Notes under the pieces: generated by a model
Seen by the model: only the letters and a program-made list of their open reading frames with translations
Told to the model about the DNA's origin: nothing
Database searches by the model: none
Made by a program: the position numbers and the translations under genes
Shown: positions 14,248 through 38,819 of the stretch, piece by piece
Layout of the letters: each line of letters begins with the position of its first letter
How positions within the stretch are numbered: the stretch's first letter is position 1
Origin: an uncultured Rhodospirillales bacterium
Lineage (GTDB): Bacteria; Pseudomonadota; Alphaproteobacteria; Reyranellales; Reyranellaceae
Direction of reading: 5' to 3'
Assembly: GCA_945957125.1 (NCBI GenBank)
Contig: CAMFJT010000017.1
Coordinates: forward strand, 1-45,868
Length of the DNA: 45,868 nt

Positions 14248-14323
<76 letters not shown>

Positions 14324-17626: not shown

Positions 17627-22543
<4,917 letters not shown>

Positions 22544-22764
22544 TCAGTTGCTTCCCCCGCAGAGCGCTTAAACGCCCTGCGCGCCGAAAGGTTGCGCGCG
22601 CCGCCATTCGTCGCACGCTCTCGTCGCCCCCGCAAATCGACAGGCCCGATGGGACGCGCGCATCCCGCATGCCTCGGTGACCGACCCATAGTGTGAATTT
22701 TTGGCGTCGCACCATAAATATTGTGGCCGACCTGCGGCGATCGCGTTAGGCTTTCTTCCGGTAG

Positions 22765-22908
22765 CTGAGGGAGGTGCTTTATCCGTTCGAGGGGCCTGCA
22801 CCCCGACGGGTTCCGGTTCACCGGCGGTCCATCCGCCGCGTGCCCCGTCAGCTTCACCTTCAGCCCTCGTGTCGATCGTCCACGCCTCCGCTTCGCGGAG
22901 GCGTTTTC
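22765..22908 (+). ncRNA. Candidate structured leader or small RNA upstream of phoH
   Basis: Nested complementarity is visible. A closing stem GAGGGaGGTG (about 22767-22776) pairs with CACC and CCCTC (22855-22868). GGGGCCTGCACCCC forms a hairpin (22791-22804). GACGGG (22805-22810) pairs with CCCGTC (22844-22849) around hairpins CCGGTTCACCGG (22813-22824) and GGCGGTCCATCCGCC (22823-22837, mutually exclusive by two bases). It ends in an intrinsic terminator. The conserved boxes of FMN, TPP, cobalamin and SRP RNAs are not present. It could be a cis leader that attenuates phoH or a free-standing small RNA. Confidence 0.45.
22883..22908 (+). terminator. Rho-independent terminator or attenuator upstream of phoH
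   Basis: CGCCTCCGC (22883-22891), loop TTC, GCGGAGGCG (22895-22903), then TTTTC. It is 45 bases before the phoH start on the same strand, so phoH would need read-through or a promoter inside those 45 bases. Confidence 0.75.
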
Positions 22909-22953
22909 ATTCGTGGACGGCCGATCCCCTTCTCCAGCCTCTGACACCGGAGC

Positions 22954-23685
22954 ATGAATATGGCCAAACGCGCCACCCGCCGCGCCAAGCTTCACGCCAT
23001 CGACGGCGACCGTATTCACAATCTCGTCTTCGAGCACGCTCCGGCCAACGATCGCGACCAGAGCTACCTGCGCAGGATCAAGCCGCGCAGCGACAACCAG
23101 CGCATCCTGATGGAAGCGATCGCCGCCAAGCCGCTGACCATCGCCGTCGGCCCGGCCGGCACGGGCAAGACCTATCTGGCGATCTCCGCCGCCGTGGAGG
23201 CCCTGGAAGCCGGCACCGTCTCGCGCATCGTGCTGAGCCGGCCGGCCGTCGAGGCGGGCGAGAACCTGGGCTTCCTGCCCGGCGACATGCGCGAGAAGCT
23301 GGATCCTTACCTCCGCCCACTATGGGACGCGCTGAACGACCGGTTGGGCGCCAAGCGCCTGCGTCAGAACCTCGACGACGGCCTGATCGAGATCGCGCCG
23401 GTCGCCTTCATGCGCGGCCGCACCCTGAACAACGCCTTCGTGCTGATCGACGAGGCGCAGAATTGCACCTACGGCCAGCTCAAGATGCTGCTGACACGGC
23501 TGGGCTGGCACTCCACCATGGTCATGACCGGCGACCCGGACCAGACCGACCTGCTGCCCGAGCTGTCCGGCCTCGGTGCCATTGCCCAGCGCCTGGAGGG
23601 CTTCGAGGACGTCGCCGTCGTGCGGCTGGCCGACAAGGACGTGGTCCGCCATCCGCTGGTGGGACGGATGCTGTCCGTGCTCTGA
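22954..23685 (+). CDS. phoH: PhoH family ATPase
   Basis: 243 aa, compact PhoH without the N-terminal PIN or KH-like additions. Walker A is VGPAGTGKTYLAISAAVEAL near residue 70, followed by RIVLSRPAVEAGENLGFLPG and Walker B VLIDEAQNCTYGQLKMLLTR, then MTGDPDQTDLL (sensor). The family is RNA-helicase/ATPase-like and often phosphate- or stress-related; the exact role is unknown. ATG 22954 has CGGAG four bases upstream; ATG 22960 (MAKRATRR) has better spacing. It is preceded by a terminator and structured RNA, so premature termination may control it. Confidence 0.93.
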   Translation: MNMAKRATRRAKLHAIDGDRIHNLVFEHAPANDRDQSYLRRIKPRSDNQRILMEAIAAKPLTIAVGPAGTGKTYLAISAAVEALEAGTVSRIVLSRPAVEAGENLGFLPGDMREKLDPYLRPLWDALNDRLGAKRLRQNLDDGLIEIAPVAFMRGRTLNNAFVLIDEAQNCTYGQLKMLLTRLGWHSTMVMTGDPDQTDLLPELSGLGAIAQRLEGFEDVAVVRLADKDVVRHPLVGRMLSVL

Positions 23686-37698: not shown

Positions 37699-38680
37699 CG
37701 CTCCTCTCCTGATCCATTGCCAACGCCATCTCGGCCGCCTGCCGCGCCATCGCCGGCCCGAGCAGGAAGCCATGGCGATAGAGGCCGTTCACGTAGAGCG
37801 TGCGCGACGCACGACGCACGGCCGGAAGATTGTCCGGAAAGGCCGGGCGCAGGTCCGCGCCCAGCTCGAGGATCTCGGCCTCGCCGAACGCCGGATGCAA
37901 GGCATAGGCGGCGTTCAGAAGCTCGACGGTCGAGCGCACGCTCGCGCCGCCGCGCGTCTCGCTCTCGATCGTCGTAGCGCCGACCATGAACACGCCCTCG
38001 CCGCGCGGCACAACGTAGAGCGGGATACGCGGATGGAGCAGCCGCACCGGCCGCGACAGCGACACCTCGCGCGAGCGGAGCACCACCATCTCGCCGCGCA
38101 CCCCACGCAGGTCTGGCAATACGTCGCGCGCCGCGAGCCCGCGGCAATCGACCAGCAGATCGGCCTGCGCCGCCACGGCCTGCAGGTCGACGCCAAAGCG
38201 AATCGGCACCGCGCGCCGCTTCAGCAGGTCAGCCAGCGCCGGCAGCGCGCGGCGCGGATCGAGATGCGCCTCCTGCGGAAAGAAAAGCGCGCGGCGAAAC
38301 CGGCCGACGAGATCGGGCTCGAGCGCACCGATGCCGGCCTCGTCGAGCCATTCGTAGTGCGACGTGCGGCCGGCAAAGCGCGGCAGCTCGGCGGCGTCGC
38401 GCGCCGGCGCCACGACCAGGCTGCCGTTGCGCACCGTGCCGGGGAAGCGCCGGACCCACCAGTCGATCGTCGGCGCGCCCAAAGTCAGCACCGCCTCGTC
38501 GGTCATCGCCCGTTCGCACCACGGCGCCAGCATGCCGCCGGCCATCCACGAGCAGGCGCCATCGCCCAGCGCGCTGCCACGCTCGATCACCTCGGCCGCG
38601 AAGCCACGCTCGGCGAGCTCGAGCGCGGCGGCAAGGCCCGCGATGCCGGCTCCGACGACGATGGCTCTGGATCGACCCAC
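37667..38680 (-). CDS. thiO: Glycine oxidase ThiO
   Basis: 337 aa from GTG 38680, preceded by GGGAG with a six-base gap. FAD-binding start SRAIVVGAGIAGLAAALELA, then GMLAPWCERAMTDEAVLTLG, RFRRALFFPQEAHLDPRRAL, IPLYVVPRGEGVFMVGATTI and the end LYVNGLYRHGFLLGPAMARQ, characteristic of D-amino-acid/glycine oxidases. It oxidises glycine to the imine used for thiazole. ATG 38707 is in frame but lies inside the TPP aptamer, so GTG is preferred. First gene of thiO-thiS-thiG-thiE-thiF. Confidence 0.9.
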   Translation of the reverse strand: MGRSRAIVVGAGIAGLAAALELAERGFAAEVIERGSALGDGACSWMAGGMLAPWCERAMTDEAVLTLGAPTIDWWVRRFPGTVRNGSLVVAPARDAAELPRFAGRTSHYEWLDEAGIGALEPDLVGRFRRALFFPQEAHLDPRRALPALADLLKRRAVPIRFGVDLQAVAAQADLLVDCRGLAARDVLPDLRGVRGEMVVLRSREVSLSRPVRLLHPRIPLYVVPRGEGVFMVGATTIESETRGGASVRSTVELLNAAYALHPAFGEAEILELGADLRPAFPDNLPAVRRASRTLYVNGLYRHGFLLGPAMARQAAEMALAMDQERSDADLRERRSA

Positions 38681-38690
38681 GCGCTGCTCC

Positions 38691-38783
38691 CGTTCCTTCG
38701 CCGGCATGACCCGGATCAGGTTCAAAGGGTTCAGCCCTGCTGGCTGTCTCAGCCCGGCTCCCCTGGAAGCCGGACACCCCTCG
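38691..38783 (-). promoter_or_regulatory. TPP riboswitch (THI element)
   Basis: Read on the minus strand: GAGGGGTGTCCGG, then GGGCTGAGACAGCC, GCAGGGCTGAACCCTTTGAA, CCTGATCCGGGTCATGCCGG and CGAAGGAACG. The GGCTGAGA and ACCCTTTGAACCTGATC-GGGT-ATGCC-GCG-AGG boxes match the thi-box consensus. It lies immediately before the thiO ribosome site, so it most likely hides that site when thiamine pyrophosphate is bound. Confidence 0.96.
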
Positions 38784-38819
38784 GACGTGCGCCCACCAGA
38801 CCGCCGACGGCGCCCTCTG

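Follow-up and report, generated by a model that had tools for sequence, protein, structure and literature searches.

Directly upstream of a stand-alone phoH paralogue, the window (the whole 45,868-nucleotide stretch of DNA analysed here, from an uncultured bacterium of the family Reyranellaceae) encodes a structured RNA that ends in an intrinsic terminator. Judged by sequence comparison, this is a conserved RNA element of the Reyranellaceae and an uncatalogued leader RNA of an already known general kind. We consider it probable that the element is a cis-acting phoH 5' leader controlled at transcription termination. The initial annotation had proposed such a leader, and the proposal is strengthened by the constant link to phoH, the covarying fold and the lack of room for another promoter in some species. 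The comparative data support reading the leader as an attenuator; its promoter, the view that phoH mRNA comes mainly from read-through, and a regulated level of read-through are what we infer.

The phoH gene (22954-23685, plus strand; PF02562, E 7e-80) is separated by 400 bases from its upstream neighbour, a large sensor kinase gene (17627-22543) that lies on the minus strand, divergent from phoH. A plus-strand terminator can thus serve only transcripts that begin within the gap. The annotated ATG at 22954 is 45 nt past 22908, as noted initially; this codon is missing from most relatives, which suggests that the true start is the ATG at 22960 (MAKRA...). A second, more distant PhoH is also carried by the complete relatives that were checked. 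Elsewhere the window contains a tRNA gene (14248-14320, plus strand) and a TPP riboswitch (38676-38791, minus strand; 67 bits, over the gathering score).

The intrinsic terminator occupies 22882-22908 on the plus strand. Its stem (22882-22891 with 22895-22904) encloses the loop TTC and is followed by the U-tract TTTTC. The stem is perfect, as initially described, and has 10 bp rather than 9; the terminator ends 45-51 nt 5' of phoH. A terminator scan returned two overlapping plus-strand sites against 0.4 expected in shuffles, and the hairpin is present in 62/62 Reyranellaceae loci that could be measured. At a number of these loci the terminator is followed by the phoH start region after about 22-28 nt (L002, L004, L029 and L030; also L136, L138, L145, L149, L176, L181 and L182). 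This is too short for a promoter and a ribosome binding site 3' of the terminator. Since several species have no room for a second promoter, phoH very likely depends on read-through. Outside the Reyranellaceae, a terminator was found ahead of phoH (within the last 170 nt) at 11 of 19 alphaproteobacterial loci, while the controls gave 2/19 on the reverse strand and 8% among shuffled sequences; these loci are the nearest relatives from one search, several of them from Zavarzinia, so the count shows a tendency, not a rate. One of these terminators (L207) sits 144 nt from phoH. Terminators before this paralogue in other alphaproteobacteria mean that such control may extend beyond one RNA family.

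The promoter region is recognizable in the alignment. An upstream block, composed of GTGTGAATTT (22691-22700, plus strand) and the near-palindrome CCATAAATATTGTGG (22712-22726, plus strand), is kept across the Reyranellaceae and is possibly an activator or UP-element site. Each genome searched has a single occurrence of the combined motif, at the phoH promoter; the exception is a poor match with three mismatches in G014. A regulon sharing the motif was rejected, because the motif is confined to the phoH locus apart from this one match. A putative promoter of the sigma-70 type was assigned by eye from the alignment, with GTGGCC as the -35 element (22723-22728) and TAGGCT as the -10 element (22747-22752), both on the plus strand. 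The spacer of 18 nt is variable in sequence and constant in length across the alignment, and is followed by TAnnnT; sister genera have GTGACA-N17-TACCGT at this position. A consensus promoter scan of the stretch reported no promoter at 22723-22752. The transcript probably has its 5' end near 22759, seven bases past the -10-like TAGGCT.

The multi-stem RNA of the initial annotation was found in the sequence as described. The segment 22740-22915 folds at -76.4 kcal/mol, while the shuffle mean is -62.4 kcal/mol (z -3.65; 0/200 shuffles as good), and the folded RNA spans about 22759-22907. The RNAalifold consensus includes a closing helix, two hairpins and the terminator enclosed by an outer stem. 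The pattern of covariation favours a three-way junction that helix P1 closes, with hairpin P3 as one arm, as well as the terminator and an outer stem, P4; hairpin P2 is the other arm of the junction. In alignment A1, 95.6% of cells pair, compared with 45-49% when the partners are slid. Six pairs are altered on both sides; cells with such double changes number 24, where shuffles give 5.4, and these changes are located in P3 and the terminator. A covariance analysis of related phoH leaders had been suggested initially, and compensatory changes were indeed found in them.

The 5' strand of P1, GCTGAGGG (22764-22771, plus strand), pairs at 8/8 positions with the 3' strand, CCTTCAGC (22857-22864, plus strand); in the window P1 is GCUGAGGG/CCUUCAGC. 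Two registers of this helix compete. Register 2 is GCUGAAGG/CCUUCAGC, and across genera it takes the forms AACGAAGG/CCUUCGUU, UGCGAAGG/CCUUCGCA, AGGUGAGG/CCUCAUCU and UCUUGGGG/CCCCAGGU. The other register, GGAGGUG/CACCUUC, pairs almost equally well within Reyranella but fails in sister genera. The best cross-genus match was sought within a search interval, which favours pairing, and swapping strands is a fair control for this. When P1 strands were swapped among six lineages, pairing was weakened, and the true partners ranked 1 of 720 in all three draws; for the outer stem P4 they ranked 1, 2 and 15 of 720. The same swap within Reyranella alone gave a weaker signal (36 of 5040 for P1, 1155 of 5040 for P4). 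Register 2 is preferred on the grounds of the cross-genus pairing and the strand-swap result. The closing stem given at first was only partly right: GAGGG/CCCTC is replaced by the conserved helix, and the GGUG/CACC part competes with it.

Hairpin P2 (22782-22810, plus strand) is formed by TCCGTT (22782-22787) and GACGGG (22805-22810). It is paired in 100% of 34 Reyranella leaders, yet it is nearly invariant in the genus and thus says little on covariation; sister genera do not have it. Hairpin P3 (22814-22847, plus strand) joins CGG..CACCGGCGG (22814-22827) with CCGCCGcGTG..CCG (22833-22847), and four of its pairs change on both sides. P4 surrounds the terminator (22873-22926, plus strand), pairing about 22873-22883 with 22913-22926, as indicated by the strand swap and RNAalifold. 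The element accordingly reaches beyond 22908, which had been taken as its 3' limit. The 3' strand of P4 falls past the U-tract, so P4 exists in the read-through RNA only.

A Shine-Dalgarno-like GGAGG (22770-22774, plus strand) straddles the boundary between P1 and the junction, with half of it in each. It is nearly invariant, with GGGAG in L186 as the exception. Since only half of it is paired in P1, this near-invariance points to a further constraint, be it a protein, the ribosome or a tertiary contact. GGAGG is also the best upstream partner of the terminator 5' arm in most of the 19 leaders searched for an antiterminator, but shuffles do equally well, and the search gave no antiterminator better than shuffled sequence. 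The specific candidate, GGAGGUG with CGCCUCC, was set aside, being not above shuffles and losing its pairing where the arm is CCCCC. Mimicry of the 16S rRNA 3' end was considered for GGAUCACC in P3 and AAGGAGGUG before it, which we take to resemble that end; the idea was dropped because GGAUCACC is changed to GGUUCACC or GACCACC in many relatives.

In a blastn search of 61 genomes, the stretch was matched in 32, all belonging to Reyranella, the genus of the window; 31/36 congeners were matched. Of the five unmatched congeners, two (L035 and L037) do carry an intact phoH leader, whose divergence puts it beyond the reach of blastn, and in at least two phoH is truncated by a contig end. Covariance model R1 was built on 34 leaders with the GGAGGUG/CACCUUC register and is therefore not the best model possible. 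It gave some match in 70/76 genomes of the order; about 61 scored above 100 bits, which is nearly all of a Reyranella set made up of the window's genome and 64 others, and the rest were weak. Wherever a phoH entry was available for comparison, the R1 copy sits immediately 5' of the stand-alone phoH paralogue. The weak matches in sister genera (G452, G421, G423, G424, G420 and G454) were taken as real since they also lie directly before phoH; a weak match in G455 is on a different contig from phoH and was taken as chance. One genome (G028; contigs C131 and C200) has two phoH copies, each with its own leader; either the gene was duplicated or the assembly mixes strains. R1 missed a leader in another family of the order (G037, L038/L192) in which inspection by eye shows the same set of parts. 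Among 385 genomes sampled from the class R1 found nothing credible outside the Reyranellaceae; class-wide matches at E 1e-5 to 0.01 were attributed to chance, those in the four genomes checked (G216, G087, G149 and G261) being on other contigs than phoH or far from it. Across the family the link to phoH is constant and the upstream gene changes.

A search of Rfam 15, at the gathering score and with E up to 10, gave no convincing match. This agrees with the initial statement that no riboswitch class could be recognized, and there was likewise no hit to a known unrelated RNA. The best weak match was L31-Actinobacteria, at 19.2 bits against the 35 needed and over 23 bases only. We found no paper in the literature on a phoH leader or on a Reyranella small RNA.

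The proposed mechanism would operate as follows. Transcription would begin near 22759 from the promoter at about 22723-22752. The RNA would fold into the three-way junction, in which P1 closes P2 and P3, before the polymerase meets the intrinsic terminator. Polymerases halted there would yield a transcript of about 150 nt, and read-through would produce phoH mRNA. Regulation would most likely come from a factor that binds the junction (GGAGG and P1) and shifts the balance between P1 and the open form. The PhoH-like protein YbeZ is a binding partner of YbeY, and Pseudomonas aeruginosa lacking YbeZ is impaired in maturing its 16S rRNA (PMC7327168; also PMC5101352). Given this role, feedback from PhoH itself, from its partner or from the small ribosomal subunit is likelier than a metabolite. 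Feedback from ribosome biogenesis is a reasonable guess, bearing in mind that the paralogue here differs from the type in the ybeY operon. No biochemical role has so far been settled for PhoH/YbeZ-type proteins (PMC5101352, PMC7327168), and the signal controlling read-through would reveal the purpose of this PhoH paralogue.

Several other explanations were weighed against the cis-acting leader. The element might be the gene of a trans-acting small RNA, with the terminator standing before phoH by chance and phoH fed by leakage. A promoter-like block of its own, a length of about 150 nt, a strong terminator, and a GGAGG and loops able to base-pair would all suit such a gene. But the element is single-copy, and even among diverged genomes with differing upstream genes it always immediately precedes phoH. 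The 3' strand of P4 also covaries past the terminator, and a small RNA ending at the terminator would have no use for that strand. We therefore regard this explanation, which the initial annotation had kept open, as weakened and unlikely; the short terminated RNA may have a second role beside the cis function. A new class of small-molecule riboswitch would account for the three-way junction, its conserved bases, the terminator directly after it and the constant gene link, and terminating riboswitches do resemble the phoH leader in having a junction fold and then an intrinsic terminator before the gene. However, the window's TPP riboswitch has a defined aptamer, whereas P2 and most junction bases of the phoH leader vary from genus to genus within a single family, and a ligand pocket would not usually do so. 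Together with the outcome of the antiterminator search, the non-metabolic nature of phoH and the restriction of the element to one gene and one family, this makes a riboswitch very unlikely. The terminator could also act at fixed strength. That the structure is purely constitutive, with the terminator setting a fixed low level of phoH or the fold stabilising the mRNA, is in line with the failure to find a switching partner; it is hardly credible, since a weak promoter alone would give a fixed low level and the elaborate covarying fold would be left without explanation.

A ribosome-sensing attenuator deserves separate consideration. A 30S subunit would bind the Shine-Dalgarno-like GGAGG and initiate at a weak, IF3-controlled AUC, AUU or AUA start, and the moving ribosome would melt P1, P3 and the terminator so that phoH is transcribed. 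In the window the candidate non-AUG start is the AUC at 22781-22783 (plus strand), 6 nt from GGAGG. The pattern GGAGG-N5-8-AUH (AUC, AUU or AUA, never AUG) is found in 59/59 distinct leaders. In none of the 59 does a stop codon interrupt its frame ahead of the terminator, while the other frames are stopped in 23 and 9. Those frames are nonetheless open in 61% and 85% of leaders, and the leaders share ancestry, so little weight can be put on the open frame. A coding leader with a conserved peptide was rejected, as the peptide is not conserved and the P2 loop has lost one base in one clade. In Reyranella the AUC lies within P2, which explains much of its conservation, and the phases seen in phoH leaders outside the Reyranellaceae do not follow the pattern. 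The infC gene of the window's own genome (L219, G000:C322) has an apparent AUA start behind AAAGGAG, which makes non-AUG starts under IF3 plausible in this genome. IF3 represses a non-canonical start in Streptomyces sigR (PMC5472188), and both infC and sigR share with the phoH leader a good Shine-Dalgarno sequence and a non-canonical codon at start distance; the putative start in the phoH leader differs in lying upstream of a terminator and opening no conserved peptide. On balance the ribosome-sensing attenuator is quite unlikely. It is improbable that the leader is a 30S sensor in the strict sense, in which IF3-limited initiation at AUC, AUU or AUA decides between terminator and read-through; if it were, PhoH synthesis would depend on how many 30S subunits are available or how mature they are, and the PhoH family is tied to maturation of the 16S rRNA 3' end.

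The cis-acting leader favoured here has its closest counterparts among protein-responsive leaders, such as those of ribosomal proteins L20 and S15 and of the RNases pnp and rnc. The two RNase leaders are protein-responsive leaders of RNA-metabolism genes. In all of these, as at phoH, a structured 5' leader is tied to one gene for RNA or the ribosome, and some act by premature termination, as proposed for the phoH leader. Rfam holds many such leaders; none matched the phoH leader at the gathering score, and no common sequence or structure was seen.

Among the phoH leaders of other alphaproteobacteria, another conserved sequence at the start of the leader, TGATTCGAAGG(A/G)G(T/G), was seen in L198, L203, L205, L206 and L208, which have no terminator before phoH. 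In L209, L210 and L212, a Shine-Dalgarno-like stretch and an ATG, opening with M-x-x-A-R-x-G, precede the terminator or hairpin.
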